IMG/VR virus record: IMGVR_UViG_3300008113_000088
Span: 1 to 45,961 of that record
Source of the DNA: a virus
Length of the DNA stretch: 45,961 nucleotides
Reading direction: 5' to 3' (one strand)
The notes below the pieces were generated by a model. It did not search any database and was not told the DNA's origin. It saw nothing but the letters and a program-made list of their open reading frames with translations. Below, in pieces: positions 27,609-39,928 of the stretch. The translations under genes were made by a program, and so were the position numbers. Every line of letters begins with the position of its first letter. Within the stretch, counting starts at the first letter, position 1.

Positions 27609-27932
27609 TTAGTTCACGAAAACGTTGGTGGGTACAGGTAGTATTGTACGTGGAGAAACGGTATTTGTCAAGTCCCCTACGTGTGCGGATGGCCGACCAT
27701 TAATAAAGACCTTGCTGGGGGCAATGATAGCCCTGGCAAGAGGAACACAAGTAGTGTCTGGGCATACAGGAAAGCCTGGAGCAGGGGTTAGAACGTCCCC
27801 TGCTTTGGCTCTGGGGCGGCCATTGGCAAATACCGTCGCCACGATAGGAGTGACGATATTTGGGGGGTAGACACAGCATGGTCTGAATGAAATGGAATCT
27901 GGATTTCCTAATCCTGCTATGGGTCTTGTCAT
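27609..27932 (-). CDS. PAAR-repeat tail-spike tip protein (gp5.4-like)
   Basis: 107 residues. PAAR features: start MTRPIAGLGNPDS, FANGRPRAKAGDVLTP, FINGRPSAHVGDL and VFVNG-like turns, each following a beta strand. His and several Cys are suitable for the metal site at the cone. PAAR proteins sharpen the tail spike under the hub; T4 gp5.4 (97 aa) is the equivalent, also encoded just before gene 6 in T4. It overlaps the stop of the 1081-aa gene (ATGA). Confidence 0.9.
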   Translation of the reverse strand: MTRPIAGLGNPDSISFRPCCVYPPNIVTPIVATVFANGRPRAKAGDVLTPAPGFPVCPDTTCVPLARAIIAPSKVFINGRPSAHVGDLTNTVSPRTILPVPTNVFVN

Positions 27933-30900
27933 ACGTTTTTGTTCTGAATTGAAATTGGCCAGAATTGAGACAAGTAATTATTTTTTTCATAACTATGGTA
28001 GGAATAATTGCTGTTTTCAAAAGGAGTCATTGTACTTTCAAACAAGTATACTTCTCCACTTTCTACAGCCCCTGATCCATCAGATGTAGCAGTAAACACT
28101 GTTCCAACTGTATATCCATCTGGAGCACCATAATCTTTCCAGTTCACAGATCCAAGAGTCTTAATTATATATCTCACATTGGTTTCAATATCTCCAGTGT
28201 TTGCAGTTTTCACAAAAGCAGATGTGGTATCAAACATCTCTCTGGTACATTGTAAAAATTCTGTCTCAGTTTTATCTCTGTAATAGATAATCTCTTCACC
28301 CAGGTAATAATGATATAGGGTTTCATTTCTAGTTTCTGGGTTAATCTCTTTCTTTACAATGTATTTGGGAATAATCAAATATCCTGCAGAAATAAATTCG
28401 CTTGTACTATCAACTTTAATTGTAGTATCAGTTGATTTTAGCTCTTGTGTTAGCTTTGCATATGGAGGTTCATCCATATATGGATTACCTTTATTCTTGA
28501 CTGCACTAGAAAGATTCTTACTAACCTCGTTAACTCTAAAGTTTAAGATCTTCTTAAAGGTAACTTGATAGTTAGTATCATCTCCATGCCAGAATGTAGT
28601 AGGAGCTGGTCCTGCTGCCCATGAAGTAATACTTCCACCTAGTGGTGGAGCAGGGAAAGGTACTGCAGAAATTGTTACTGTAGTGATAAAACCTTCACTA
28701 TCAGTGTTAATATTTGCTTGCCAACCAGTTGCACTTGATGGAGTTACAGATCCAGTCCATCTAGGAATAGACTTAATTTGAATTTCAGTATTGTTTTCAT
28801 CAGAATCTGGAAAAAGACCTGAATCACTAACGAAGCTAAAGTCTTCAATAATGTATTCAAGTGACTTGAACCTTGGTGGAATACGATATGCAGCTTCAGT
28901 TTTATAGACTTGGCTTGATTTGTCCTCTCCTTCAATTAGTGGAGGTAGATTTGGAATGGTAGTTTGCTTTGGAACAGAAGCACCAATAGTAGAAATTGCT
29001 TTCAGTAGGGTATTTTGTAGTGAATTTTCATTGGAGATTATTTGTTTGTACATCTCTTCAGGCAAATTAATGCTAGAAAAGTCAAAACTACCACCAAGAT
29101 TTGAGGTAACTATAGAGTCTAACTCTTCTTTACTGTAAGTTTTAGGTGTTTTTACGTCAATGCATGGGTCATACTTAGTATCATTTTGTATCGGAGCGAT
29201 ATATTCATTAAAAGTATTGAATTCACTATGTGGATAGTAGACTTTTGAGTAGTCTGGGGTGACATTACTATCACATTCAGAGTCTTTAACTGCTAAAACA
29301 GTCTTATTACCAAGCTTTAGCTTCTCAGATTCAATGATTTCCTTCTGAACCGTAAGAAAATCAGAAGCAGTTAGGCGATCTATCCAACCTTTTAGCTCAT
29401 TAATCTCTGCTGGTCTACTAAAATAAGTCCAGAAGATGTTGTTTAGTTGATATGCAGTGTCATTTGCAGCTGATACACATAAAAACTTCTGCTGAATGTA
29501 GTTAGAACCATCATTTAAGACAACATTACCAAGTGTAAATTTACCTAAATCGTCTTCTAGGTAAGTAGATTCGCAGAATCCATCCCTAGAATAAAATAAT
29601 GGAGTGTAAGTATAGAACTTTTTATCATTACTAACATAAACACCACAGACTGCAGACCTATCAATGATGCCTCTACCAGCAATAACTTGAATTCTATTGA
29701 CTGGAATTAGTGCTTGACCTTGAACTCTAGTGACTGACCAGCCACGAACAAAGGTATTGACCTTATTACTGTCTCTTTTGAACCATACTTTGAAGCTTTT
29801 AGTGTTGACAAATTCAACTTTAGAAGCAAATATGAAAGAGTTTTCCACTCCAGATGCACTTTGATCATCTGTAATAGAAATCTGAACATCATTTTTGCTG
29901 GTAATTGTAGTATTGTCTAGGAAAGTGACTAAGTAATACTTCCTACTTTCACTATCATTGGAACCACCTTCGTCGTTTTTATTGATAGTTTCTACTTTAA
30001 TATCCTTTGTTGTGGTCAGTTGTATGTTTTTGTTCTTTTTGTCATCAAAAACATGGTAAATCGTGCTTGTATACTGGGGAGTTGAGGGGGTAGACTTGGA
30101 ATAGTACTGGTCTTTAACAAAAGGAGCACTACCGCCACTGATCTCAGCATAGCAAAGAATCTGGTTTGAGATATTATTAGCAAGACCAGTATTAGTAAAC
30201 TTGACGTTTCTAACCTTTCTCTTGTTTTTATACTTCAGAGGTTTAGTAAGAAAGATCTTAAGTCCCTGAATACTCTCTACGTAGGTATCACTCTGAATAC
30301 CGTAGCCAGTTACTAAGTCTCCGATGTTGATAATTCTATCCTCTGCTCCATCGTTTTTGTTAATAAAGATAAACCCAGGAGTCTTGTTCTTCTCAGAAAC
30401 CTTAGAGACTCTTCTTCTAACAGATTCTGTGGTTCTCAAAGACTTCTCATCAAAGTGCTCAGAGTTATAGTTGACTACTTTGTTGACTGTCCAGCCATTG
30501 ATGACATCACCAACAGCAATCATATCTTTATTGGAAGTATTCTCATAGTAGAAGAATATCTTATTATCGAGTGTACCTCCATGGTAAGCAACGCTTCCTT
30601 CAGGTAGGCCAATTACTTGACTGTCCACTCTATTGAGTGTGAATGTACCACTAACGCTGGTACTGGATGTTGCATAGACTGGGCATTCTGTAGTTTCTGT
30701 ATTTCCATCATCAGGGGGAGTAGTTACAGTAATACCTCCCACAGGTCGTGCAGGAAGTGTGTGAGTTAAAGGCCACTCAAAAATATGGTAAAAGTATTGC
30801 TCATCATATACTTTGTCTGCCTTGCAGAATCGTTCATAAACTGGCTTACTCTTGATATTATCACCAGAACCAACAATTTCATATTCTGGTTGATAAAATA

Positions 30901-31174
30901 CTTGGTCAACAAAGTTTACATTATCACCGTTAGCGTTCTCTGCATCTAGAGCAGGAACTTGAATTACAGTGCGACGAAGCTTTTGCTGTTTACTTCCATT
31001 CTGAATAGTTTTATTTGCTAAACTAGGTGGCCTGACTTCGTACCAATATGGATCAATATATGGAAATTCTATCGTAATCTGAGCTGGTGGCCCTTCTTCT
31101 GGTGGAGGGCACTCTGGATATGTAAATGTAAGCTTTTTATTTACTGGGTCTTTCTTTGGACTACAATTAGTCAT
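27929..31174 (-). CDS. 1081-aa virion structural protein upstream of PAAR
   Basis: No T4 homologue recognised, although it occupies the place of the gene 5 hub/lysozyme; I see no lysozyme motif. The first about 150 residues are Pro/Tyr-rich (ITIEFPYIDPYWYEVRPPSL). Residues about 575-625 (IFWTYFSRPAEINELKGWID) resemble DUF4214, a repeat of secreted or surface proteins. The C-terminal part has the module GEEIIYYRDKTETEFLQCTR, shared with three other virion proteins here. Many short beta strands. Good Shine-Dalgarno (TAGGAG) and ATGA coupling to PAAR point to a tail-tip or baseplate component. Confidence 0.8.
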   Translation of the reverse strand: MTNCSPKKDPVNKKLTFTYPECPPPEEGPPAQITIEFPYIDPYWYEVRPPSLANKTIQNGSKQQKLRRTVIQVPALDAENANGDNVNFVDQVFYQPEYEIVGSGDNIKSKPVYERFCKADKVYDEQYFYHIFEWPLTHTLPARPVGGITVTTPPDDGNTETTECPVYATSSTSVSGTFTLNRVDSQVIGLPEGSVAYHGGTLDNKIFFYYENTSNKDMIAVGDVINGWTVNKVVNYNSEHFDEKSLRTTESVRRRVSKVSEKNKTPGFIFINKNDGAEDRIINIGDLVTGYGIQSDTYVESIQGLKIFLTKPLKYKNKRKVRNVKFTNTGLANNISNQILCYAEISGGSAPFVKDQYYSKSTPSTPQYTSTIYHVFDDKKNKNIQLTTTKDIKVETINKNDEGGSNDSESRKYYLVTFLDNTTITSKNDVQISITDDQSASGVENSFIFASKVEFVNTKSFKVWFKRDSNKVNTFVRGWSVTRVQGQALIPVNRIQVIAGRGIIDRSAVCGVYVSNDKKFYTYTPLFYSRDGFCESTYLEDDLGKFTLGNVVLNDGSNYIQQKFLCVSAANDTAYQLNNIFWTYFSRPAEINELKGWIDRLTASDFLTVQKEIIESEKLKLGNKTVLAVKDSECDSNVTPDYSKVYYPHSEFNTFNEYIAPIQNDTKYDPCIDVKTPKTYSKEELDSIVTSNLGGSFDFSSINLPEEMYKQIISNENSLQNTLLKAISTIGASVPKQTTIPNLPPLIEGEDKSSQVYKTEAAYRIPPRFKSLEYIIEDFSFVSDSGLFPDSDENNTEIQIKSIPRWTGSVTPSSATGWQANINTDSEGFITTVTISAVPFPAPPLGGSITSWAAGPAPTTFWHGDDTNYQVTFKKILNFRVNEVSKNLSSAVKNKGNPYMDEPPYAKLTQELKSTDTTIKVDSTSEFISAGYLIIPKYIVKKEINPETRNETLYHYYLGEEIIYYRDKTETEFLQCTREMFDTTSAFVKTANTGDIETNVRYIIKTLGSVNWKDYGAPDGYTVGTVFTATSDGSGAVESGEVYLFESTMTPFENSNYSYHSYEKNNYLSQFWPISIQNKNV

Positions 31175-31184
31175 ATTATTAGAA

Positions 31185-31367
31185 TTAATCTCCTACTTTA
31201 TGTATGCGAATACCTGGAGTATCATGATGATCAAAATATTCAAATTCTAAAGTATCACCTTCTTGCCATTGCATTTCATCTACCAGCTCATCTGGAAATG
31301 TAATAAAATATTCACCTGTTTTATCGTCATATTGTACCTCAGTAGTAAACGAAGAAAATGTTGACAT
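31185..31367 (-). CDS. AbrB/SpoVT-like small protein
   Basis: 60 residues: TTEVQYDDKTGEYFITFPDE, LVDEMQWQEGDTLEFEYFDH. The swapped-hairpin pattern (x-G-E-Y-x-I-x-x-P, then W-x-E-G-D-x-L) is that of AbrB/MazE-type DNA-binding domains, common in cyanophages. It is the first gene of the minus-strand late block and faces a divergent operon, so it may regulate the intergenic region 31368-31426. That is inference. Confidence 0.75.
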   Translation of the reverse strand: MSTFSSFTTEVQYDDKTGEYFITFPDELVDEMQWQEGDTLEFEYFDHHDTPGIRIHKVGD

Positions 31368-31426
31368 ATGTGTATTTAAAACTACAGTATATAGCCGAAA
31401 TAAATAATTAAAAATTTTTTAACCTA
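31368..31426. promoter_or_regulatory. Divergent promoter region
   Basis: 59-bp gap between the AbrB-like gene (minus) and the capsid-targeted operon (plus). On plus, AATAAATA at 31399-31406 lies 20 nt before ATG 31427, a late box. On minus, the strand reads CTATATACT and then TTTAAATAC before the AbrB-like start, so it may have both a sigma-70-like and a weak late element. No Shine-Dalgarno on either side. Confidence 0.55.
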
Positions 31427-32602
31427 ATGACTAATCTATTAGAAGCCTATCAATCTATGTATGAAGATCAAGATTGGAAGGAAAGAAATTTTAGATCAAT
31501 GCCAGATAAAAGTATTCCTAAGGTTGCAGATAAAGCTAGAAAGTTGCAGGCAGATATCAAGTCTCAGAAATCAAGACCATTAGCAAGATTTCGCCCTGGA
31601 ATTAGAAAAGACGTAAAGAATAAGAATAATCAGCTTAGAAATATTATACATTCACTTAGAATGAAACAAGGTGATGTAGAAGCTAGAAAAAGAGCACATG
31701 ATAGTAAAATTGATCATATTAGACAAAAAGCACACGAACTAGGAGTTAGGATTCACAATCTTAATAAACCACAAAGTGTTATTGCACCTGGACCAAAAAA
31801 CTGGAATAGACCCTCAAATAAAAAGGTAAATGCATCAAATACAATCAAGAGATTTCGTAGAGAAGATATTGAGTATATTCTAGATTATCTTGTAAATGAA
31901 GGCTATGCAAACTCCTATGAAAGTGCTGCAGGAATTTGTGAGTCTATGTCTGATGCCTGGGTAAATTCAATCTTAGGTGAAGTTATTGTAGAATCTTCTA
32001 GAAGATCACAAGTTGCATCAAAGCAAGGTAGAACACCAAAGCCAGGTGCAAAGAGTGGCAAATCTAGTGCACCATTGGATATCAAGATGGCTGGAATGCC
32101 TGGCTCTGGTAAATCAACAATGGCAAAAAGGCTAGCCAAAAAGACTGGCGGAACTGCAACTGGATATGACGATGCACGAGAAACAATTCATGGTAATAGA
32201 TCTAATCAATCTAAGTTTCCTGAAGTCCACAAACTTACAATGGATCGACTAAGAGACGCAAATAAATCTAAGCCAAGAATTCAAGACAACACTAATGTTA
32301 ATCCAAAGTTCAAACAGAGTACTGATGATAGTCTAAAGAAAGATGCTGGATTTAGATCAATTACAACAGTATCACCTAGAACATCACAGAGGAGATCATT
32401 TGCACGAAATGCAAAGAGAGATCAGCCAGTTCCAAGATTTGTGATGAAAAGTATGGCATCACAAGAAAAAGAGTTTAGAAAGTCTAGAGAAGGTAAAGGT
32501 GCAGTTAAGACAGGTAAGGACCTGACTAAGAGATTCAGATTAAATCGTAGATCTGCAAGAGCAAGACTAGGAGTTGAAAATCCAAAGAGAGGTCAAGCAT
32601 GA
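31427..32602 (+). CDS. Capsid-targeted protein with polynucleotide-kinase-like domain
   Basis: 391 residues. N-terminus MTNLLEAYQSMYE gives an L-L-E|A site like those cut by the T4 prohead protease. Residues about 20-140 are highly basic. About 145-185 (DIEYILDYLVNEGYANSYES) is a helical motif seen in cyanophage head proteins. Residues 223-231 are a Walker A (GMPGSGKST), then YDDARETI matching the DDxR (D35/R38) of T4 polynucleotide kinase, QDNTNVNP matching SDTNLNP, and a lid RNAKRDQPVPRFVMKSM matching T4 RNSKRGTKAVP...MYKSM. So it is a 5'-kinase or zeta-toxin-class P-loop phosphotransferase without the phosphatase half. It ends ATGA-coupled to the next gene. Target unknown. Confidence 0.8.
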   Translation: MTNLLEAYQSMYEDQDWKERNFRSMPDKSIPKVADKARKLQADIKSQKSRPLARFRPGIRKDVKNKNNQLRNIIHSLRMKQGDVEARKRAHDSKIDHIRQKAHELGVRIHNLNKPQSVIAPGPKNWNRPSNKKVNASNTIKRFRREDIEYILDYLVNEGYANSYESAAGICESMSDAWVNSILGEVIVESSRRSQVASKQGRTPKPGAKSGKSSAPLDIKMAGMPGSGKSTMAKRLAKKTGGTATGYDDARETIHGNRSNQSKFPEVHKLTMDRLRDANKSKPRIQDNTNVNPKFKQSTDDSLKKDAGFRSITTVSPRTSQRRSFARNAKRDQPVPRFVMKSMASQEKEFRKSREGKGAVKTGKDLTKRFRLNRRSARARLGVENPKRGQA

Positions 32603-33234
32603 AAACGTACTCTGAATTTTTAGTAGAGTCTGAACGTAGAATTGGAAGGGCATTGAGCCCTAGAGGGCCATCTTCAACTAGAGGGTTTATGGCTCGTAAT
32701 AGAACTTATGGTGAATATGATAATACTCCTCCAACACAACAAAGAACTCAACGAAGAGCTATGCTCAGAAGGCATGGACTTCCAAAAGGATCTGCAAACT
32801 TAAAAACTCCCGAAACCAAATCCATCAAAAATGATGGAATGGAAACGAAAGTTACAACCCATAAAAACTCTGGACACTTTGCAAACGAAAGACTTCGTAC
32901 TATGCAAATGTTTAAGTCACCAAAGAAAGATCAACATCAAGTTGTTAAGAGTATTACAAAACACTTAGGAAGAAACCACAGAAAACCATTTTCTGATGTT
33001 GATATCTACAATACAAACAAAGATGACTCTAAGATGACAAGTGGTAGAAAGTTTATGAAGGCAGTGAAAAATGTTCCAAAGGATGTTAGGTCTGTAGGTG
33101 GAAAATCTTTTGGTGGAGTTCCAACAGATATGAATACTGGAAGACACTCTCCAAGTCGTGAGAAGTTATATCGTGATAAACTTAAAATGACTAGACAAGA
33201 TAAAACTACTCGATATCAATTCAAAAGAGGTTAA
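32599..33234 (+). CDS. Basic capsid-targeted (internal head) protein
   Basis: 211 residues starting MKTYSEFLVESERRIGR, very close to the T4 internal-protein capsid-targeting sequence (MKTYQEFIAEA). It has a protease site L-V-E|S. The rest is strongly basic (Arg/Lys rich, many Ser and Asn), with no enzyme motif. Proteins of this kind are packed with DNA in the head, trimmed by the gp21-type protease, and injected. Middle gene of the plus-strand operon, ATGA overlap at its start. Confidence 0.78.
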   Translation: MKTYSEFLVESERRIGRALSPRGPSSTRGFMARNRTYGEYDNTPPTQQRTQRRAMLRRHGLPKGSANLKTPETKSIKNDGMETKVTTHKNSGHFANERLRTMQMFKSPKKDQHQVVKSITKHLGRNHRKPFSDVDIYNTNKDDSKMTSGRKFMKAVKNVPKDVRSVGGKSFGGVPTDMNTGRHSPSREKLYRDKLKMTRQDKTTRYQFKRG

Positions 33235-33236
33235 GC

Positions 33237-33842
33237 ATGAAAACATTTGCTCAGTTCCTAGAAGAAGCAAAGCAACATACTCAACTTTTAGATGATGCTT
33301 GGATTCCACCTGCATCAAAGAAATTGAGAGCTGGAACAGAAAGTCCATTAAGTCTTGCAAGAAAGAAGGGAACGGATGTTAATAAAGTAAGAGCATCAGT
33401 TGGAAAATTCGCAGAACCAATCAACAATCCAAGGCATCCTGATATTGATTATAAAAAGGATGAAAAGTCAGGAACTCATACATTCACACACAAAAAACAT
33501 CCAATTCAAGTAACCTATACCCCAGGAGATAAACCAAATACATTTATTCAGAATACAACTAAAACTGGAGAAACAACTGATAGAATTGGTGCAGGTAAAG
33601 CAATGCAGGATATTAAAAAGAAAGTATCATCTTCAGCAAGACCTGGAACTACATTAGTATCACAACCAGTAGGAGATCGTAGGGCATCATTGAATACAAG
33701 ATCCCAGGGAATGAGTGAACCAAATGAAAAGGGAGTACAAGCAGGAATTACAAGAAATCGTTCACCAAAACAAAAGGCGAGAGGTGCAAAGCCTTTAGAT
33801 CCAGTGAAACATACTGGGACATTTATTGATCCTAATCATTAA
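33237..33842 (+). CDS. Capsid-targeted (internal head) protein
   Basis: 201 residues starting MKTFAQFLEEAKQHTQ, a capsid-targeting peptide with predicted cleavage L-E-E|A. The remainder is basic and low in hydrophobics. A central segment looks like a short beta domain (SGTHTFTHKKHPIQVTYTPG). It begins 2 nt after the previous stop and is followed by a strong terminator. No known enzyme fold; probably injected with the DNA. Confidence 0.78.
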   Translation: MKTFAQFLEEAKQHTQLLDDAWIPPASKKLRAGTESPLSLARKKGTDVNKVRASVGKFAEPINNPRHPDIDYKKDEKSGTHTFTHKKHPIQVTYTPGDKPNTFIQNTTKTGETTDRIGAGKAMQDIKKKVSSSARPGTTLVSQPVGDRRASLNTRSQGMSEPNEKGVQAGITRNRSPKQKARGAKPLDPVKHTGTFIDPNH

Positions 33843-33868
33843 ATCTACAAACTCAAATAAATTATTTT

Positions 33869-33903
33869 TTCCGAGGATCTAAACGGTTCTCGGAATTTTT
33901 TTT
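33869..33903 (+). terminator. Rho-independent terminator of capsid-targeted operon
   Basis: Stem TTCCGAG/CTCGGAA with a 13-base loop followed by eight T residues, 27 nt after the last stop codon. It ends the only plus-strand operon of the window. Confidence 0.9.
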
Positions 33904-34204
33904 GTTGAAAATTTTTTCCGAGATTATTTTGATACACTCGGTAAGACAAAGGGCGATATATGTGAATTGCTCGGAATATGTTGTGCGGGTTGGGAGGGGC
34001 ATATGGGGAAACCTTGGATGGGCTTGGAGATTGGTGGAAAATTTTTGAGTTGATTGAGTATCTCTCTGGCTTTCTGGGTACGTTATAGCTTAGGGTAGTT
34101 AGACGTTTTTCACGGGTACGGGCCGGGGCGACCCATAAGGGCCGTTTATACTGCCCCTGCCCACTGATAAGGACTGCTGATCGATCAGGATTGCTGATCA
34201 AAGG
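33904..34204. other. Gene-free convergence zone
   Basis: About 300 bp between convergent transcription units. I see no credible gene. It holds CCGAG/CTCGG half-motifs related to the terminator, a 12-bp palindrome CTGATCGATCAG near 34180, and a near-repeat GGAxTGCTGATC on both sides of it. A minus-strand TATAAA (34145-34150) has no good -35. Base composition switches here from AT-rich to GC-rich. Confidence 0.6.
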
Positions 34205-34224
34205 GGGAGCCCCGGAGGGCTCCC
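34205..34224 (-). terminator. Hairpin terminator after 58-aa gene
   Basis: Perfect 8-bp stem GGGAGCCC/GGGCTCCC with a 4-base loop, directly after the stop. It is followed by CCTTTG, not a full T run. Last unit of the GC-rich array. Confidence 0.7.
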
Positions 34225-34232
34225 GCTGCGGG

Positions 34233-34409
34233 TCAGTGGAACACCACAGAAGTGCAGTGGCAGCCGAAGCTCTCAAACCACTGATCCAGCTCCTCCCACG
34301 TGGGGAAGGACACCTGCCCGCCTTCCGTGGGGGACAGCATGTAGCTGGCGCTGTAGGCCACACGGGTGACCGTGGTGTTCTGAGCGGTGACGGTGACGGC
34401 TTTAGTCAT
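34233..34409 (-). CDS. Hypothetical small protein (cassette array)
   Basis: 58 residues: MTKAVTVTAQNTTVTRVAYS, ...PTWEELDQWFESFGCHCTSV, ending VFH. A beta-like N-half and a short helix, with two Cys near the end. High-GC codons. The start is set by leader hairpin copy A, which ends at GAGGATC immediately before ATG. Upstream -10 TAGGAT at 34452-34457. Not recognised. Confidence 0.72.
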   Translation of the reverse strand: MTKAVTVTAQNTTVTRVAYSASYMLSPTEGGQVSFPTWEELDQWFESFGCHCTSVVFH

Positions 34410-34412
34410 GAT

Positions 34413-34450
34413 CCTCAGGCAGTGCGGGCACCGATCGGCCCGCTTGAGAT
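34413..34450 (-). repeat. Leader hairpin element, copy A
   Basis: 5' leader on the minus strand: CTCAAGC-GGGC-loop-GCCC-bulge-GCCTGAG, then GATC-ATG. It differs from copies B and C at three bases, all in the 3' arm, and keeps the stem. It abuts the start codon of the 58-aa gene. Confidence 0.8.
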
Positions 34451-34467
34451 AATCCTACAGGATGGGC

Positions 34468-34492
34468 GGGCCAGCCGTGGCTGAGCTGGCCC
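34468..34492 (-). terminator. Hairpin after 62-aa gene
   Basis: 8-bp stem GGGCCAGC/GCTGGCCC with a 9-base loop, 12 nt downstream of the 62-aa gene stop and just upstream of the next promoter. Confidence 0.6.
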
Positions 34493-34504
34493 TAAAGTTC
34501 ATAT

Positions 34505-34693
34505 TCAGTAACCTAGCCAGACCAGCCACTCCCCGGCGTCAACCCCATTGGGCCAGCCTATGGCTGAGCCATACAGGGCCAAAAACTCTTGCCCGACACC
34601 GTGGCTGATCGATTCACTGAAAGCATCCTGATAGGGGATGCAGCCCTGCTCGTTCATGCGGGCTTCTGTGGCTTCCCTAAGGGTTTCGTACAT
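34505..34693 (-). CDS. Hypothetical small protein (cassette array)
   Basis: 62 residues: MYETLREATEARMNEQGCIP, then a helical/aromatic C-half (FLALYGSAIGWPNGVDAGEW). High-GC codons. Leader is AC-rich (GCACAAGCACCATG) with no Shine-Dalgarno. Ends at a GC hairpin. No family recognised; one of the short presumed early genes. Confidence 0.65.
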   Translation of the reverse strand: MYETLREATEARMNEQGCIPYQDAFSESISHGVGQEFLALYGSAIGWPNGVDAGEWLVWLGY

Positions 34694-34725
34694 GGTGCTT
34701 GTGCTTGTGGGGTGTAGGTAGGAAG

Positions 34726-34756
34726 GGGGACCCCGTAGGGTCCCCGGCTGGGCTCA
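34726..34756 (-). repeat. Terminator hairpin repeated at 36028
   Basis: Stem GGGGACCC/GGGTCCCC with loop CGTA plus flank GGCTGGGCTCA. The 31 bases are identical to 36028-36058 and include the stop codon of each upstream gene. It marks a duplicated gene junction. Confidence 0.8.
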
Positions 34757-35038
34757 CCAGTCGCTGGGATCGTACTGATCGCAGCGCCAATCCTCACGCT
34801 CCTCATCTGTCATGGGCCGGGTGAGGCTGAGCGGGCCACATGCCCACAGTTCTACTTCCTCGCCGTGCTCGGGCTCACAAGCCCAGCTCAGAACCAACCC
34901 AGCTGGCAGATACAGCCAGCCCCGTGTGGGCTGGTTTGCTGCTGTATCTACGTACAGCACGTGAAGTATCGTCTGGAACTTAGGCGGGAGGCGCAGGTCG
35001 CCTACCGAGCAGGGAGTGAAAAGGTCAGAGCTTTGCAT
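34754..35038 (-). CDS. Hypothetical small protein (cassette array)
   Basis: 94 residues: MQSSDLFTPCSVGDLRLPPK, FQTILHVLYVDTAANQPTRG, an acidic Trp-rich C-terminus (MTDEEREDWRCDQYDPSDW). It looks like a small beta-barrel followed by an acidic tail. Own promoter (TTGACG-18-TACACT) and leader hairpin copy B, with AAGGACC immediately before ATG. No known family. Confidence 0.72.
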   Translation of the reverse strand: MQSSDLFTPCSVGDLRLPPKFQTILHVLYVDTAANQPTRGWLYLPAGLVLSWACEPEHGEEVELWACGPLSLTRPMTDEEREDWRCDQYDPSDW

Positions 35039-35040
35039 GG

Positions 35041-35078
35041 TCCTTAAGCGGTGCGGGCACCGATCGGCCCGCTTGAGA
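35041..35078 (-). repeat. Leader hairpin element, copy B
   Basis: Minus-strand leader: CTCAAGC-GGGC-CGATCGGT-GCCC-GCACC-GCTTAAG, then GACC-ATG. The first 37 bases are identical to copy C. The predicted transcription start falls at or just before the first base of the stem. Confidence 0.85.
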
Positions 35079-35081
35079 TTA

Positions 35082-35120
35082 AGTGTACAGCATGGTGGGG
35101 CAAGCCGTCAAGCTTGCCCC
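35082..35120 (-). promoter_or_regulatory. Fused hairpin terminator and promoter
   Basis: Hairpin GGGGCAAG/CTTGCCCC (35097-35120) follows the 85-aa gene. Its loop contains the -35 TTGACG (35106-35111). Then 18 bp to -10 TACACT (35082-35087). It drives the 94-aa gene. Confidence 0.75.
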
Positions 35121-35128
35121 GGTTGGGT

Positions 35129-35386
35129 TTAGAGGTTGAACGCCAGCTCTAGGGCATTGGCATAGCCTTGTGCCGTATTCGCCAGCTGCAGCAGCGCCTT
35201 CCGTTCGGGCGACATGTAGTGTCCCCGTTCCATCTCACACCACTGTGCAACCCAGGCCCAATCGGCTTGCTGCTGCCAGCCACGGCAGGCCATAGCCTCA
35301 TCACTCCACCCCCAACGGGTGTACTGCTCGACTTGCTGGGAGTCGAGCTTGCGGATGCCAGCGTAGACAAGCTCAGTCAGGGTCAT
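35129..35386 (-). CDS. Hypothetical small protein (cassette array)
   Basis: 85 residues: MTLTELVYAGIRKLDSQQVE, then Trp-rich helices (WGWSDEAMACRGW, ADWAWVAQWCEMERG), ending LLQLANTAQGYANALELAFN. All-helical. The start MTLTEL resembles MTLAEL inside the 69-aa protein at 36751-36960, a weak hint of relationship. Own promoter and leader hairpin copy C. Unknown role. Confidence 0.72.
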   Translation of the reverse strand: MTLTELVYAGIRKLDSQQVEQYTRWGWSDEAMACRGWQQQADWAWVAQWCEMERGHYMSPERKALLQLANTAQGYANALELAFNL

Positions 35387-35388
35387 GG

Positions 35389-35426
35389 TCCTTAAGCGGT
35401 GCGGGCACCGATCGGCCCGCTTGAGT
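35389..35426 (-). repeat. Leader hairpin element, copy C
   Basis: Same as copy B over 37 bases and in the same place: between -10 box and ATG, ending AAGGACC-ATG of the 85-aa gene. Confidence 0.85.
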
Positions 35427-35429
35427 TCA

Positions 35430-35468
35430 ATAGTAGAGGGTGAAGGGGCAAGCCGTCAAGCTTGCCCC
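35430..35468 (-). promoter_or_regulatory. Fused hairpin terminator and promoter
   Basis: Hairpin GGGGCAAG/CTTGCCCC (35445-35468), with -35 TTGACG in its loop at 35454-35459, 18 bp, then -10 TACTAT (35430-35435). Identical hairpin and spacing to the 35082 unit, but with a different spacer distal half. Confidence 0.75.
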
Positions 35469-35476
35469 GGCTGGCC

Positions 35477-35677
35477 TCAGGCGTCGAATAGCAGTTGGGA
35501 GCCGATCTCCAGCTCGACTGCTCGCCGATACTGAGCGAGCGCCAGCCGCTTGGCTTGCCGGTCGCCCCGGTAGCCAGCGTTACAGGCAAGACACCACCAC
35601 ATCTCCCACCTACCGGTAGAGGGGGGCAGCCCTTCCGGGCGATCGTAGGCGGTGTGTGTGCTGATGGTGCTGATCAT
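35477..35677 (-). CDS. Hypothetical small protein with CxxC
   Basis: 66 residues: MISTISTHTAYDRPEGLPPS, WWCLACNAGYRGDRQAKRLA, then a helix (LAQYRRAVELEIGSQLLF). WWCLAC...G-x-R is like one half of a zinc ribbon, but the second Cys pair is absent. Leader is AC-rich, no Shine-Dalgarno. Ends at the hairpin at 35445-35468. Confidence 0.65.
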   Translation of the reverse strand: MISTISTHTAYDRPEGLPPSTGRWEMWWCLACNAGYRGDRQAKRLALAQYRRAVELEIGSQLLFDA

Positions 35678-35715
35678 CGTTCTAGTGGGTTGGCTTGTGC
35701 AGTGTAGGGAGAGAT

Positions 35716-35737
35716 GGGGCCACCAGCTGGTGGCCCC
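35716..35737 (-). terminator. 22-bp perfect palindrome after 79-aa gene
   Basis: GGGGCCACCAG/CTGGTGGCCCC, perfectly self-complementary over 22 bp, 8 nt downstream of the 79-aa gene. No T run. The next -10 (TACACT) follows within 15 nt. Confidence 0.6.
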
Positions 35738-35745
35738 GGTGGTGA

Positions 35746-35985
35746 TCAGCCAGCCTCGCCGGGCTGGAATCGGATGCTGCCATCCGCTAGCACGTCAGCC
35801 TGCCTCCCAGGCCGGCGCTGCAGCCAGGCCATGGCACCCCGTAGGGCAGCCATGCGAACCTCGGCCATGGCCTGCCAGCCGGTGAGCCGAAGGCACGAGT
35901 CGCCTCCGGCAGCCGGAACGGCGTAGTAGGTCAGCAGCTGACCCTCACGGGTGGTGTGCTGGCTGATCAGGATCGGAGAAGGCAT
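35746..35985 (-). CDS. Hypothetical small protein (cassette array)
   Basis: 79 residues: MPSPILISQHTTREGQLLTY, YAVPAAGGDSCLRLTGWQAM, ending ADGSIRFQPGEAG. A beta-rich start, helix, then a beta hairpin. High-GC. Extended -10 TGCTAAGAT upstream at about 36013-36021, after a GC hairpin. No recognised family. Confidence 0.65.
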   Translation of the reverse strand: MPSPILISQHTTREGQLLTYYAVPAAGGDSCLRLTGWQAMAEVRMAALRGAMAWLQRRPGRQADVLADGSIRFQPGEAG

Positions 35986-36027
35986 TGGTCTGGGTTGGTT
36001 TGGGACTTGAGAATCTTAGCAGGTGGT

Positions 36028-36058
36028 GGGGACCCCGTAGGGTCCCCGGCTGGGCTCA
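36028..36058 (-). repeat. Terminator hairpin repeated from 34726
   Basis: Second copy of the 31-base junction (stem GGGGACCC/GGGTCCCC, loop CGTA, GGCTGGGCTCA). It terminates the 84-aa gene. Confidence 0.8.
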
Positions 36059-36310
36059 GATGCAGTTGTCAGCCAGCCAATCCCGGATCTCGTTCGGGTA
36101 GGTGGCCCATGCCTGCAGGGCTTGTGCGAGCATGTCGCACTCTAGGTAGCCTCTGTCAAAAGCCCATAGTGTGCCGCCGTTTCCGGTGAGGGAACACCAG
36201 ATAGAAAAGGTGCTCGGCTTGCGATCATCCTCGCTATCGGCCCAGCTCAGCAGCCTCTCCACGGCGTAGGTGGCCTGTTCAACGGTGAGGCGGGTCTCGG
36301 TGGTTGCCAT
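36056..36310 (-). CDS. Hypothetical small protein (cassette array)
   Basis: 84 residues: MATTETRLTVEQATYAVERL, LSWADSEDDRKPSTFSIW, ...ALQAWATYPNEIRDWLADNC. Mixed alpha/beta with a Trp-containing C-terminal helix. AC-rich leader (AACGGAACCCACC-ATG) without Shine-Dalgarno. -10 TACACT is about 25 nt upstream. Unknown. Confidence 0.65.
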   Translation of the reverse strand: MATTETRLTVEQATYAVERLLSWADSEDDRKPSTFSIWCSLTGNGGTLWAFDRGYLECDMLAQALQAWATYPNEIRDWLADNCI

Positions 36311-36350
36311 GGTGGGTTCCGTTTGGGACTTCTACAGTGTACAGCATGGT

Positions 36351-36369
36351 GGGGCCAGCTTGTGGCCCC
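36351..36369 (-). terminator. Hairpin after 68-aa gene
   Basis: Stem GGGGCCA/TGGCCCC, loop GCTTG, 9 nt after the stop. The flank GGCCCCGGTGGTGATCAGCC is shared with the junction at 35731-35750. Confidence 0.6.
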
Positions 36370-36377
36370 GGTGGTGA

Positions 36378-36584
36378 TCAGCCGATCAGCTCACCCAGGC
36401 GCTGGGCCATGGCCCCGCTTTGACGCCACAGGCGCTCGATTGCCTCCCGGTCACGACCGTTGGCGGGGTCTTGAAAAGCTTCCTGCAGGATGCCAAACCA
36501 GTAGGAGCTGGAATCAAAAGCCATACGGCGCAGGGCCTCGGCCTCCCAGGCGGTGAGGGTCAGGGTGACGGTTTCGGATTGCAT
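36378..36584 (-). CDS. Hypothetical small helical protein
   Basis: 68 residues: MQSETVTLTLTAWEAEALRR, MAFDSSSYWFGILQEAFQD, REAIERLWRQSGAMAQRLGE. After a short strand it is all helix, which fits small ribbon-helix-helix-like or anti-repressor-type folds, but no diagnostic motif is present. Promoter at 36610-36639. Unknown. Confidence 0.65.
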   Translation of the reverse strand: MQSETVTLTLTAWEAEALRRMAFDSSSYWFGILQEAFQDPANGRDREAIERLWRQSGAMAQRLGELIG

Positions 36585-36609
36585 CGCTGTAGTGCGGTGT
36601 ACGTAGGGA

Positions 36610-36639
36610 ACACTAGCAGGCCGCTGCTGCAGCTTGCAA
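36610..36639 (-). promoter_or_regulatory. Sigma-70-like promoter of 68-aa gene
   Basis: -35 TTGCAA (36634-36639), 18 bp, extended -10 TGC-TAGTGT (36610-36615 for the hexamer). About 25 nt of leader to ATG 36584. Confidence 0.6.
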
Positions 36640-36711
36640 GGGGTCAGAGTGACAGCTTAGAAAGTGGCACAGCTGTGGCAGTTCTAGAACTGGCCCACTA
36701 GGGTTTAGCGT

Positions 36712-36741
36712 GGGCCAGTGTGCCAGCAGGCCAGCTGGCCC
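36712..36741 (-). terminator. Hairpin after 69-aa gene
   Basis: Stem GGGCCAG/CTGGCCC with a 16-base loop, 10 nt past the stop of the 69-aa gene. The surrounding 36640-36711 holds no gene; it has several CCAGT/ACTGG half-repeats. Confidence 0.5.
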
Positions 36742-36750
36742 TGTGCCAGC

Positions 36751-36960
36751 TCAGGCCCTGGCCCTGCGACGCCTGATCTCGTCACCATACGTGCTTGCTT
36801 CATCGCTGTAGCGGCCCTCGGCGATGGGGTTCCAGCCTCGCATCGCCTGCTCGGCCTTGCGTGCATCCTGTGCACTGTAGATCAGCTCAGCCAGGGTCAT
36901 GGCCTTTGCCTTGGCTTCCCAACGGGCGAAGTCTTGTGGAGTGGCGTGGTTGGCGATCAT
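36751..36960 (-). CDS. Small helical protein, cyanophage-type
   Basis: 69 residues: MIANHATPQDFARWEAKAKA, MTLAELIYSAQDARKAEQAM, GRYSDEASTYGDEIRRRR. The pattern (LxxLxxAxxDAxxAxxAxxxxxxGxYxDExxxYxxEIxRR) is a repeated theme of small cyanophage early proteins. Extended -10 TGC-TATACT upstream at 36986-36991, with no good -35. Function unknown. Confidence 0.7.
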   Translation of the reverse strand: MIANHATPQDFARWEAKAKAMTLAELIYSAQDARKAEQAMRGWNPIAEGRYSDEASTYGDEIRRRRARA

Positions 36961-37148
36961 GGCCTTTGGCTGAACTGAGATCAGTATAGCAGGTGGGCTG
37001 GCGTGGTGTGGGCCAGCTGGTGGCCAGCCCTTGGATTGTCACAATGTGAAATGTATGTACATTGTGCCCCTACGTGTGTGTGGGGGAATGTATGGTTAAG
37101 TATTACCTATTACGGTTAATAATTTGTAATACTGTTAATAATTTTATA
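36961..37148. other. Gap with promoter, then AT-rich stretch
   Basis: No gene seen. Contains the extended -10 TGCTATACT (minus) of the 69-aa gene and a GGGCCAGCTGGTGGCCAGCCC palindromic cluster. After about 37085 the composition changes abruptly to AT-rich, with repeated TTAATAATT. Confidence 0.55.
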
Positions 37149-37298
37149 TTATTGATAATAATTCTTGTCTACCAGAATATCATTCTCCCAAACTACATTG
37201 GTAGTATTAAATATAACGCTTAATAATTCTTCAGTCAATTCAATGTAACCCATAGTGTTCAATTCTTCCACTTGTGCGTTGGTGAGAAAGGGATTCAT
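37149..37298 (-). CDS. Very small acidic protein
   Basis: 49 residues: MNPFLTNAQVEELNTMGYIE, LTEELLSVIFNTTNVVW, ending DKNYYQ. Acidic, helical, AT-rich codons unlike its GC-rich neighbours on the array side. Leader GGCAACCCC-ATG lacks a Shine-Dalgarno; a TATATAA lies about 25 nt upstream. Pattern of small early cyanophage proteins; function unknown. Confidence 0.65.
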   Translation of the reverse strand: MNPFLTNAQVEELNTMGYIELTEELLSVIFNTTNVVWENDILVDKNYYQ

Positions 37299-37589
37299 GG
37301 GGTTGCCTTTGTTTGACCTTTATATAGTCCCATAGATCCTGGCCAGAGTCTAGTGGTCTTGTGCCAGTGGTCAAACTGGTTCTAGGACTTGACTGGGGGC
37401 CGGACGGCGTGCTAGAGTGAAGGTAGACTCTATTTGTCTGTGTGACGATTTGTATACTGTCTGTAATTTGGCTCTGTTGGGGGGTGGTGCCGTGCTAGGA
37501 TGTGATCACAACCGAGAGAGGGCTGGGGTAAGCCTGATGATGAAATGGTCGCCACGCCCCCTGCCATAAAATAGTTAATAAAAAAAGAC
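37299..37589. other. Gap with plus-strand promoter signals
   Basis: About 290 bp without a convincing gene. On plus: TTGACT (37389-37394), 18 bp, extended -10 TGC-TAGAGT (37413-37418), and a second extended -10 TGC-TAGGAT at 37491-37499. A hairpin TAGAGT/ACTCTA (37413-37432) follows the first promoter. These could drive a non-coding RNA antisense to the 104-aa gene. Confidence 0.45.
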
Positions 37590-37614
37590 AAAAAAAGGGC
37601 TTGCTGTCAAGCCC
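37590..37614 (-). terminator. Rho-independent terminator after 104-aa gene
   Basis: Minus strand: GGGCTTG/CAAGCCC stem with loop ACAG, then seven T residues. The stem/loop also contains TTGACA, as in the fused units, but no good -10 follows. Confidence 0.88.
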
Positions 37615-37628
37615 CGGTGTGCCACTTG

Positions 37629-37943
37629 TCAAACTGCGCTAGGGCGATCCTGGCTCCACTGGCGCAAGCGACGGGTGCTGGCCTTGCTGTAGACACGGTT
37701 GGTGATCGGGTCGCCGTTGGCCTTGGTGGCGATATTGCGGCCTGCAGCGTCAGCAGCAGCCTGCAGTGCCTTACGGCCCAGCTTGCGTTCAGCCTCTAGG
37801 GCGTTCTCATTGGTGGCCAGGTCAAACAGCCATTGTGCACGGTGGCGGCCAACGATGTGGGGCTGACGGATGGTGATCTTGGCAACAGCCACAGCAACCA
37901 CGGTGGGGATGCTGGTGCGGGTCAGGCGATCGTTGCGGGTCAT
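37629..37943 (-). CDS. Basic Ala/Arg-rich hypothetical protein
   Basis: 104 residues: MTRNDRLTRTSIPTVVAVAV, AKITIRQPHIVGRHRAQWLF, ENALEAERKLGRKALQAAAD, then an Arg-rich C-terminus. Basic and helical, possibly nucleic-acid binding. The leader contains hairpin GGGGGCAGAGATCCCCC (37962-37978), between -10 TATACT (37986-37991) and ATG. No known family. Confidence 0.7.
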   Translation of the reverse strand: MTRNDRLTRTSIPTVVAVAVAKITIRQPHIVGRHRAQWLFDLATNENALEAERKLGRKALQAAADAAGRNIATKANGDPITNRVYSKASTRRLRQWSQDRPSAV

Positions 37944-37961
37944 TGTCTCGTGGGGTGTGTG

Positions 37962-37991
37962 GGGGATCTCTGCCCCCGTGATCTAAGTATA
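37962..37991 (-). promoter_or_regulatory. -10 box plus 5' leader hairpin
   Basis: -10 TATACT (37986-37991) with weak -35. The transcript would begin about at the 5-bp stem GGGGG...CCCCC, 19 nt before ATG of the 104-aa gene. Confidence 0.5.
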
Positions 37992-37995
37992 GGGC

Positions 37996-38029
37996 ACCGG
38001 GTAGACCCTGGCTATGGGTCAGACCCGGT
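37996..38029 (-). terminator. Long hairpin after GP88 gene
   Basis: ACCGGGT/ACCCGGT outer stem and ACCC/GGGT inner stem, 20 nt past the GP88 stop. No T run. It lies immediately upstream of the -10 of the next gene. Confidence 0.6.
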
Positions 38030-38048
38030 TTGTTGCAAAGCTTAATCT

Positions 38049-38807
38049 TTACACTTTAGCGGTCAGAATAGCCTGGCGCTCTTTAGCGTAACCACTAAAC
38101 TGTCCAGCCTTGCGACGTGCCCACACTGCTTTGCCATAGGTTGAACCTTTAGGCTGGGTTGAATGCACGAGAAGTGCAAACGGTTTGTCACCAAAACAAT
38201 GCGAATCGTCGTGATCAACCTCTAACCCAAGCGCTGCAGCTTCTTCATCGTTGTGCACAACTTTACTGTAGCGGGAGAACACACCAGCATCAATGTAGTG
38301 GTCAAACTTACCACCATAGCTGGCAGTAAAGTAAAAGTTGGAGGGAAGCTCCAAACCTACAAACAGTGGCAGATTCTTGCTGTAGCAGTAGAACTTAAGA
38401 TCAGGGTTCAGCTTAGCTACTTCAATCCAAGCATCCAGATAGGCACCCGAGAAGAAATCACCAGACTCGTGGATTCTCACCAGCTTGCTGTTCTTCTTGC
38501 GAGCATTCTGCAAGCTTCGATCAATTAAACCTACCAAATTGTTGGCTTGCATCGCTTCCACAACCATTTCAAGGTTGCGAGCCCGAGCATAGAAAGGGCC
38601 ATCGTATTGTGCCTCGCTAGTTGCAGCAAAGCAACGGAATTGAGTCTGTGGGCCATCCTGAACTTTACGTTTGCCGTCTTCAGTAACAACAGCAAAGGAC
38701 AAACAGAACAGAGCGCCAGGGCAGGTTTTACCAGCTGGCAGACTAAAGATCAGTGTGCCCTTGCCAAGCTTGGCGTTACCGTGGGAGAAGGTGAGAAGGT
38801 CGGTCAT
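38049..38807 (-). CDS. GP88-family protein
   Basis: 252 residues. It matches the phage Gene product 88 family: N-terminal GNAKLGKGTLIFSLPAGKTC, PGALFCLSFA with conserved Cys, FRCFAATSEAQY, then the signature LVRIHESGDFFSGAYLDAW with IEVAKLNPDLKFYCYSKNLP. Several Cys (CPGxxxC and later FxC) suggest a metal or Fe-S site; His/Glu/Asp in RIHESGDF may be catalytic. The biochemical role of GP88 is not established. It is the only sizeable gene in the cassette array. Leader has the GTTCAACACCCGAACCA-ATG element. Confidence 0.85.
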   Translation of the reverse strand: MTDLLTFSHGNAKLGKGTLIFSLPAGKTCPGALFCLSFAVVTEDGKRKVQDGPQTQFRCFAATSEAQYDGPFYARARNLEMVVEAMQANNLVGLIDRSLQNARKKNSKLVRIHESGDFFSGAYLDAWIEVAKLNPDLKFYCYSKNLPLFVGLELPSNFYFTASYGGKFDHYIDAGVFSRYSKVVHNDEEAAALGLEVDHDDSHCFGDKPFALLVHSTQPKGSTYGKAVWARRKAGQFSGYAKERQAILTAKV

Positions 38808-38825
38808 TGGTTCGGGTGTTGAACT
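38808..38825 (-). repeat. AC-rich leader element, copy 1
   Basis: Minus leader GTTCAACACCCGAACCA before ATG of the GP88 gene. Related copies at 40241, 40485 and 40763 share GTTCACCACC(T/C)(G/A)AACC(A/C)-ATG. No Shine-Dalgarno in any. Confidence 0.7.
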
Positions 38826-38832
38826 TGAGTGA

Positions 38833-38866
38833 ATCCTAGCAGCTGGTGGGGGCTTGTGAAGCCCCC
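38833..38866 (-). promoter_or_regulatory. Fused hairpin terminator and promoter
   Basis: Hairpin GGGGGCTT/AAGCCCCC (38848-38866), with a weak -35 TTCACA across its loop (38855-38860), 16 bp, then extended -10 TGC-TAGGAT (hexamer 38833-38838). Serves the GP88 gene. Confidence 0.6.
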
Positions 38867-38885
38867 GACTGATTAGCGTTGCTTA

Positions 38886-39050
38886 TCAGTAACCGTTCAG
38901 AAACTCGTGCAGGGCTTCCTGATATTGCTCCTCGGTGTGGAAGGTCCGAGTCCCGATGGTGCAAGGGAAGGTGCGACGGGGAGCGGCAGCCTTGCTGGGC
39001 TCTTTGCCCTGCTGCTGCAGCTGCTGAACATAGGGGTTCTGGCTGGTCAC
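38886..39050 (-). CDS. Small protein with GTG start
   Basis: 54 residues from GTG: MTSQNPYVQQLQQQGKEPSK, then RTFPCTIGTRTFHTEEQYQE, ALHEFLNGY. There is no ATG in frame between the -10 (TAGGAT at about 39075) and this point, so GTG is chosen. The C-terminal EEQYQEALHEFLNG is typical of short cyanophage proteins. Gln/Lys-rich linker at the front. Unknown role. Confidence 0.6.
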   Translation of the reverse strand: MTSQNPYVQQLQQQGKEPSKAAAPRRTFPCTIGTRTFHTEEQYQEALHEFLNGY

Positions 39051-39129
39051 GGTGTCGTTTGTGGTTGACTCTGGAATCCTAGCAGCTGGTGGGGAGCCCT
39101 GAGCCCCCCTTCGTTACAAATCGAAATAA

Positions 39130-39321
39130 TTACATCACCAGTAGCCAATCCTGGTCATTGTGTACATTAACCCAGAAGAAGTTCTTGCCATTCATAGAAC
39201 GCAAGAATACTCTATCACCTTTGTGCTGTTCAATGATACAATGTGGGCAGGATTGCATTTGGTTAGCCATCCTGTTTTTAGCCTTTTTGCTGATGGGTTG
39301 AACTGAAATCATCGGAGCCAT
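39130..39321 (-). CDS. Small conserved cyanophage-type protein
   Basis: 63 residues: PMISVQPISKKAKNRMANQM, SCPHCIIEQHKGDRVFLRSM, NGKNFFWVNVHNDQDWLLV. The (P-I-S-K-K-A-K-N-R-x-A-N) helix plus a beta hairpin with the VFLRSxNGKxFFWV pattern recurs in marine cyanophages. A CPHC pair is present. Start could also be the Met at residue 4. Function unknown, presumably early. Confidence 0.72.
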   Translation of the reverse strand: MAPMISVQPISKKAKNRMANQMQSCPHCIIEQHKGDRVFLRSMNGKNFFWVNVHNDQDWLLVM

Positions 39322-39411
39322 GATGTTAGTTTGCGGTTAGCAACACTCAGTAGCTTAGCAATAACCAGCAGTGCAATGAGTTCGGCTGTCACAATCTGTA
39401 ATAATGTAGTG

Positions 39412-39433
39412 AAAAGGGGGAATTGCTTCCCCC
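39412..39433 (-). terminator. Terminator after 87-aa gene
   Basis: Minus strand stem GGGGGAA/TTCCCCC, loop GCAA, followed by TTTT. About 10 nt after the stop. Confidence 0.82.
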
Positions 39434-39442
39434 TAGATCCTA

Positions 39443-39706
39443 TCACACGGTGACAGGCTTCAGTTCTTCAGTCTTGCGAGCGTCTGCAATAGTAGAACCA
39501 ATGCTTACATTCTTCAGGATCTCATCGTTAGTCATAAGATCACTCAGGAACTGAGCATATGACTCGGTAGCAGTAAAGTTATAGGCTTTGTCAGGATTGC
39601 TGTGGTAAGTGATAATAATATCAGTGTTGTCTACAGTGATAGAGTTAATAGCACTGGACTGTTCTTTGGTGAATGAACGATGAACAGAAGCGATTGCAGT
39701 TGCCAT
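39443..39706 (-). CDS. Small protein, possible KTSC-like fold
   Basis: 87 residues: MATAIASVHRSFTKEQSSAI, SITVDNTDIIITYHSNPDKA, YNFTATESYAQFLSDLM. The strand pattern (I-x-V-x-x-x-x-I-x-I-T-Y-x-S-x-x-x-x-Y-x-F) resembles KTSC domains but is not decisive. Own fused promoter unit at 39734-39767 and SD-less AC-rich leader. Ends at a U-tailed terminator. Confidence 0.7.
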   Translation of the reverse strand: MATAIASVHRSFTKEQSSAINSITVDNTDIIITYHSNPDKAYNFTATESYAQFLSDLMTNDEILKNVSIGSTIADARKTEELKPVTV

Positions 39707-39733
39707 GATGTTTGTGCTTGGTGTACGGTTAAT

Positions 39734-39767: not shown

Positions 39768-39787
39768 TGAATGATTAGTATTACTAA

Positions 39788-39922: not shown

Positions 39923-39928
39923 AATAAT

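Follow-up and report, generated by a model that had tools for sequence, protein, structure and literature searches.

The closest described systems to the one presented here are found in phage T4. Its internal proteins IPI, IPII and IPIII are small basic head proteins that bear a capsid-targeting sequence (CTS), are processed by the gp21 protease and combine a constant leader with varying cargo; they are reported to be injected, each of them blocking a GmrSD restriction system (PMC12373910, PMC9026906). For IPIII, the first 10 residues are described as enough for packaging, and residues 4 and 7 of the T4 CTS are reported to matter for targeting and residues 8 and 10 for processing (PMC9026906). 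In these accounts, those T4 internal proteins whose role is known inhibit restriction, and the ADP-ribosyltransferase Alt is a packaged enzyme (PMC9026906, PMC12373910), processed by gp21 and injected from the head (PMC9026906). The polynucleotide kinase of T4 (Pnk, PseT) is reported to repair PrrC-cut tRNA together with the ligase Rnl1 (PMC3014915, PMC3874168) and to phosphorylate the 5'-OH RNA left by RegB, which leads to attack by RNases E and G; Pnk and Rnl1 are described there as delayed-early proteins (PMC3014915). GNATs, ARTs and zeta-like kinases are reported to occur in polyvalent proteins delivered with the DNA (PMC5512222), and it has been argued that ARTs are often packaged into virions (PMC9503650), so that the delivery of enzymes by phages can be regarded as an accepted idea. 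In the literature searched, which comprised titles and the beginnings of abstracts with few subscription papers, neither a packaged Pnk nor a CTS route for a Pnk-type kinase was found. Delivery of the T4 internal-protein type is known; a Pnk-type kinase as its probable cargo would be the new part.

The locus described here can be compared with each of these systems. The kinase family of this locus resembles IPI, IPII and IPIII in its small, basic, probable head proteins with a CTS, in predicted gp21 processing and in a constant leader with varying cargo, but the T4 cargo consists of inhibitors whereas here it would be a P-loop kinase, and the fusion joint of the window retains only the processing half of the CTS. 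Its product would resemble Alt as a head-packaged, processed and injected enzyme, although it belongs to another enzyme class and Alt does not start with an MKT[YF]-type sequence. With T4 Pnk it has in common the kinase fold and the Walker A, DDxR, NT and lid motifs; it differs in lacking the 3'-phosphatase, in the CTS tag of its relatives, in the late-promoter motif and in its very basic character. The zeta-like kinases of polyvalent proteins, or fused to MuF domains, are also P-loop kinases with predicted delivery by phages or conjugative elements (PMC5512222), but their delivery signal is another one and they are of the zeta type, not of the Pnk type.

The window (the whole stretch of DNA that was analysed) is a virus record of 45,961 bases in which T4-type baseplate, neck and small-terminase genes are present. 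The virus is T4-like, and its hosts are probably cyanobacteria. This assignment is based on the presence of psbA in G001, the longest relative with the same locus (it carries locus L002), and on the best annotated match of the body of the fused gene, which is Synechococcus phage S-CRM01. psbA is absent from the other five of the six records searched, all of them fragments, and no close DNA relatives were found among phage isolates. The features of the locus are the following.

31399-31406, plus strand: late-promoter-like NATAAATA (within AATAAATA), ending 20 nt before the ATG.
31427-32602, plus strand: fused gene, basic head-operon body and Pnk-type kinase (391 aa, intact reading frame, ATG start).
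31427-31993, plus strand: N-terminal body, residues 1-189; a separate gene in L002, its C-terminal part resembling S-CRM01 g291.
31436-31447, plus strand: LLE/A, residues 4-7, candidate site for the prohead protease close to the N-terminus (motif scan, predicted cut at 6/7).
31985-31996, plus strand: IVE/S, residues 187-190, prohead-protease-type site at the joint of body and kinase, aligned with LLE/S of L003.
31994-32599, plus strand: predicted mature kinase, residues 190-391.
32000-32029, plus strand: conserved linker motif RxxQxASKxG, confined to these kinases among the reading frames scanned.
32093-32119, plus strand: Walker A, GMPGSGKST.
32168-32179, plus strand: DDAR, residues 248-251, counterpart of DDYR in T4 Pnk.
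32285-32296, plus strand: DNTN, counterpart of the DTN/DQTN motif of Pnk.
32405-32419, plus strand: RNAKR lid arginines, residues 327-331.
32474-32599, plus strand: basic C-terminal tail, mostly of low confidence in the structure model.
32599-33234, plus strand: second operon gene, CTS MKTYSEFLVE/S.
33237-33842, plus strand: third operon gene, CTS MKTFAQFLEE/A.

The original prediction of a Pnk-type kinase fused to a basic body, within an operon for internal head proteins that is probably expressed late, is supported by this arrangement, with the three kinase motifs that it had named (Walker A, DDxR and lid) in an intact frame, two CTS genes next to it and the late-promoter-like motif in front. 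The TGA of the fused gene overlaps the ATG of the next gene at 32599. The fused protein is basic (pI 10.6), and its residues 190-391 even more so (pI 11.6). The same fusion is encoded by a second contig, L001, with 23 differences from the window in 13,173 bases (99.8% identical), and an assembly error is therefore unlikely; the window and L001 are the two records with the fusion.

The kinase domain is recognized by Pfam AAA_33 over residues 221-345 (E 2.6e-10; 41.2 bits, cut-off 27) and by the polynucleotide kinase family PHROG_505 (6.3e-11). The latter match covers the kinase half alone (6-147 of 295); the window kinase thus lacks the 3'-phosphatase domain that T4 Pnk has. GMPGSGKS starts at residue 223, DDAR at 248, DNTN at 287 and the lid RNAKR at 327, in the same order as in T4 Pnk in the alignment. 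DDxR and the two lid arginines are catalytic in T4 Pnk; the window kinase has them, together with Walker A and a predicted P-loop kinase fold. With regard to the Asp of the T4 SDTN motif, DNTN of the window has it one column earlier, like DQTN of the ordinary Pnks of the phages. Divergence between relatives indicates that the kinase is under purifying selection, with dN/dS values (NG86) of 0.17 for the window and L003, about 0.13 for the window and L009 (dS 1.8, near saturation) and 0.016 for L009 and L010.

The comparison of a predicted structure with T4 Pnk and zeta toxins, which had been proposed as a check, gave a modelled P-loop kinase fold. The model covers residues 190-391 and is of modest quality (pLDDT 63, pTM 0.57; a model from a 4-sequence alignment reached pLDDT 52). 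In VIA-align, T4 Pnk is its best match with Z 13.0 (136 residues, 3.1 A), followed by Clostridium thermocellum Pnkp with 12.9, PSTK with 11.5, adenylate kinases with 10.9 and below, and zeta toxin with 9.8; the alignment behind the model included 14 ordinary Pnks, and the model therefore favours likeness to Pnk. In Foldseek, PSTK ranks first, followed by a gluconokinase and then by mammalian PNKP, and T4 Pnk comes in sixth place. Profile comparison with solved structures gives weak matches, T4 Pnk at E 4e-4 over the domain and PSTK at 0.01, and T4 Pnk is outranked by adenylate kinase 9 (9e-5) over 39 residues. PADLOC gave nothing better than 0.0045 for the window protein. In two trees, the seven rows of CTS-kinases cluster together (97/94 and 97/95), separate from the ordinary Pnks of the phages, on the PseT-type side. 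We take these trees as supporting evidence only, because treekit gave long-branch warnings in both. One of them kept the CTS columns; in the other one, 4 of 23 rows (window, L003, L009, L091) carry surplus linker residues, since GK[ST] also occurs earlier in the linker. L010, 99% identical to L009, was omitted from both.

The strongest indication for packaging comes from relatives in which the kinase is a gene on its own. Such stand-alone kinases with a CTS were found in eight IMG/VR contigs, encoding seven distinct proteins with identities to the window kinase down to about 30%. Their leaders follow the consensus MKT[YF]x[EQ]F[IL]xE/[AS], with the predicted cut before [AS]: MKTYSEFLLE/S in L003 and L004, which encode the same protein, MKTFNEFIFE/A in L009 and L010, MKTYSEFITE/A in L087, MKTFNEFITE/A in L091 and MKTFSQFIFE/S in L086 and L088. 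In L003/L004, which occupy the same locus as the window and share its late-promoter motif, the body is absent and MKTYSEFLLE runs straight into SSRRSQVASKQ and the kinase. In L009/L010, the kinase is a separate gene (MKTFNEFIFE/ARTR...) in a different neighbourhood, directly downstream of a body-type gene. Y/F4, F7, I/L8 and E10 are present in all seven distinct proteins, and all seven also keep the CTS together with the linker motif, although identity to the window falls to about 30%. Down to the same level, Walker A and the two arginines of the lid are invariant, whereas DDxR and NT are either retained or conservatively changed; in a second subfamily (L086, L088), DKSR and SNTS replace DDAR and DNTN. 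When IMG/VR was searched with a DNA pattern for CTS plus Walker A, seven stretches were obtained and all seven encode CTS-kinases (L003, L004, L009, L086, L087, L088, L091). A looser pattern gave ten stretches, three of which (L092, L093, L094) were not counted because their leader MKSFFEFI is missing in the HTVC008M homologue; in these three, a P-loop kinase lies close to a DNA-polymerase-like gene.

Among isolates, tblastn with the window protein against 50,697 phage records gave 26 matches, and in none of the 26 does the match extend over a CTS; the same holds for the best 40 of 816 matches with L009, the best 12 of 323 with L091 and all 12 with L088. A bacterial origin of the kinase was also considered, and a contig scan gave at least 14 loci and no useful relative. 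A kinase-like reading frame is present in 13 of the 14 loci listed, most of them matching around Walker A alone and being shikimate-kinase-like by eye.

The leaders can be compared directly with T4, in which IPII and IPIII start with MKTYQEFIAE/A. Of 744 distinct viral N-termini, 12 have a strict CTS motif, where shuffling predicts 0.002; this is a biased rate, because the viral loci were fetched partly for encoding such genes. Fairer controls are the stretches of T4 (2 of 97, IPII and IPIII), of S-CRM01 (2 of 325) and the bacterial loci (0 of 385); the strict motif misses T4 ipI (MKTFKEFTST). A protease of the gp21 type (Peptidase_S77) is encoded in eight of nine related records, including those of L002, L003 and L010, and in two of seven records of a second, overlapping set composed mostly of short fragments, the record of L001 being among the five without it; none was found in the 46-kb fragment that forms the window. 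Since the kinase of the relatives directly follows a T4-type CTS, we think that this kinase family is very probably packaged in heads.

In the window, the targeting of the fused form has to be different. The original prediction placed a capsid-targeting-type peptide at its N-terminus. LLE/A is indeed present there at residues 4-7, but a T4-type CTS is absent: MTNLLEAYQS has none of the T4 targeting residues, and the targeting of the fused form would therefore rest on the body. N-termini like MTNLLE/A recur in four distinct body-type proteins (window type, L002, L013 and S-CRM01 g291). At the joint, ...GEVIVE/SSRRSQ of the window aligns with ...SEFLLE/SSRRSQ of L003, in such a way that CTS positions 8 and 10, those for processing, are kept as I187 and E189, and positions 4 and 7, those for targeting, are lost. 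Both LLE/A (6/7) and IVE/S (189/190) have the protease motif (L/I)xE/(A/S/G), and the same scan also lists ICE/S at 172/173 and LGE/V at 185/186. The simplest reading is that the fused protein would be carried in by the body and cut at IVE/S, giving the same mature kinase as in the relatives. The fused form of the window is thus likely packaged as well, as originally predicted, through the argument from the T4-type CTS of its relatives and with the internal IVE/S, not the N-terminal LLE/A, as the useful site. L002, at the same locus, has the body only, and it retains 11 residues from the start of the kinase module and four from its end (RGQA). Such a remnant would be expected if a fused ancestor had lost its kinase in frame. 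L002 has the body without the kinase, and the kinase is therefore dispensable.

The NATAAATA-type motif, which we take to be the late-promoter motif of T4-like phages, precedes the gene or operon by 17-33 nt in six of the eight kinase loci examined, L009 and L010 being those in which it is missing. AATAAATA also occurs 20 nt upstream of the ATG in L002 and 18 nt upstream in L003. When 16000 windows of 120 nt were drawn at random from these loci, 351 had its core ATAAATA. In the window it is rarer than in shuffles (11 vs 26), and the promoter argument is therefore one of placement, not of abundance: 6 of the 11 copies sit 9-34 nt upstream of a gene. In T4 controls, the motif is found within 120 nt before alt and is absent before ipI, ipII and ipIII.

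Next to the anchor gene (27929-31174) lies an accessory slot, which is occupied by body, CTS or kinase genes in 5 of the 15 anchor loci examined (16 were fetched); in the remaining ones none of these genes was seen, some of them ending at the contig end. The cultured phage B23 has two CTS genes, one of them a GNAT, at a comparable position, where they diverge from gp25 and a small reading frame. Several other features lie near the operon. On the minus strand, 31185-31367 encodes a 60-aa PHROG_661 protein with a weak MazE match below cut-off, which is conserved beside the operon in L001-L004. Downstream of the operon, 33845-40000 is a GC-rich block (0.43-0.63 vs 0.27-0.41 elsewhere) of tiny reading frames that contains a duplicated stretch of ~91 nt (35036-35126 and 35384-35474, 89%); L001-L004 have similar blocks of small reading frames at this position, and other relatives have them close to the anchor gene. 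Towards the right-hand end, the window encodes an HNH-endonuclease-like protein (41435-42049) and, on the minus strand, a metallophosphoesterase-like one (43981-44613).

Four records of this group also encode an ordinary Pnk. Its kinase and phosphatase lie elsewhere in the record of L001, which has the fusion of the window, and they are likewise present in those of L003, with its CTS-kinase, of L002, with the body alone, and of L029, which has neither. In G001, a 166-aa gene encodes this kinase, and the phosphatase has its own frame downstream. An Rnl1-type ligase is present in the records of L002, L003 and L029. The fused kinase of L001 and the CTS-kinase of L003 are therefore additions. In the records of L010, L088 and L091, which are fragments, the CTS-kinase was seen and no second Pnk. 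The late-promoter-like motif, the two CTS genes of the operon and the separate Pnk alongside the same fusion fit an extra enzyme that would be delivered by the virion.

The interpretation that we favour, with some confidence, is that the locus encodes a packaged and injected Pnk-type kinase cargo, cut at IVE/S, which would act on 5'-OH ends of RNA or DNA before phage expression. The kinase domain and its motifs, the CTS of the relatives, the operon, the late-promoter motif and purifying selection can be read from the sequences, and we infer packaging, cleavage, injection, a nucleic-acid substrate and the role. The kinase would be made late and enter the prohead core, targeted in the relatives by its own CTS and in the window by the fused body. 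The gp21-type protease would then cut IVE/S between residues 189 and 190, producing a basic mature kinase (residues 190-391) that would share the head with the DNA and enter the host at infection. In the cell it would most likely phosphorylate 5'-OH ends of RNA (or DNA) ahead of phage gene expression, either helping to repair RNA cut by host defences or feeding 5'-OH fragments to decay of the RNase E type. That the substrate is a nucleic acid seems probable to us; that 5'-OH ends of RNA are the likeliest substrate is an even call. A packaged kinase would supply Pnk activity at time zero.

Other interpretations have to be weighed against this one. The protein might be packaged and act mainly as a structural or DNA-condensing internal protein, with an inherited kinase fold whose activity is irrelevant. 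The very basic mature part (pI 11.6) and the existence of a body gene without kinase in L002 agree with this possibility, which we nevertheless judge unlikely, because Walker A and the lid arginines are kept down to about 30% identity, with DDxR and NT kept or conservatively changed, and dN/dS is well below 1. A zeta-toxin-like or other small-molecule kinase delivered by the head, acting for example on UDP-sugars and weakening the host wall, is another possibility; a zeta-toxin-like effector had been suggested originally. Its P-loop kinase fold is the right one, zeta toxin is among the structural matches (Z 9.8), and zeta-like kinases do occur in polyvalent proteins and fused to phage MuF domains (PMC5512222). 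This suggestion turns out to be weak and we regard it as improbable: Pfam Zeta_toxin scores 12.3 bits for the window protein against a cut-off of 22.3 and 14-17 bits in L003, L009, L010, L086 and L088, with no listing for L087 and L091, the lid is of the Pnk type, and T4 Pnk structures stand about 3 Z units above zeta. No better are the chances of a kinase acting during assembly, for instance on ends or nicks of the DNA being packaged, its injection being incidental. The late-promoter motif and the CTS would put the kinase in the prohead core and a Pnk fold is compatible with DNA ends, but gp21 processing in T4 is reported to come before DNA packaging, and the T4 internal proteins with known inhibitor roles are reported to act after injection (PMC9026906, PMC12373910). 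As for a PSTK-style kinase of charged tRNA, PSTK resembles Pnk in both sequence and fold and comes first in Foldseek, but this reading is hardly credible given 16.4 bits for NCBIfam PSTK (TIGR03574, L-seryl-tRNA(Sec) kinase) against a cut-off of 290.5 and the place of PSTK under Pnk in VIA-align.

If the injected Pnk-type kinase is real, a kinase of nucleic-acid ends carried by a CTS would represent a novel type of virion enzyme for immediate action, and it would illustrate how the gain of a 10-residue tag can bring enzymes into the head. A wider proposal, which we put forward tentatively and with slightly less than even expectation, is that T4-like cyanophages use the CTS as a general loading tag for changing injected enzymes (two Pnk-type subfamilies, GNATs and possibly ART-like proteins), the kinase 5'-phosphorylating RNA ends at time zero, before the phage's own Pnk and Rnl1. 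Enzyme cargo is perhaps a wider theme because GNATs with a CTS occur in one relative and in two cultured cyanophages. The one of the relative (L091:2010-2396) lies directly upstream of the L091 kinase, with an Acetyltransf_7 match (1.3e-6) above cut-off, and its homologues in S-CRM01 (g185, 139045-139440, annotated as acetyltransferase) and B23 (gp252, 122703-123095) keep the CTS. The CTS tag also provides a sequence rule for finding cargo in unannotated phage genomes, the GNATs being candidates in two phages in culture. In L010, a CTS protein (3254-3682, MKTYNQFLSEA) adjoins the kinase and has a weak, sub-threshold DUF3990/ART-like match (0.0054). S-CRM01 also encodes, at 36132-36791 (g33), a Lys-rich protein of 219 aa that starts with MRTFESFLAE/A and adjoins a gp16-like terminase gene.
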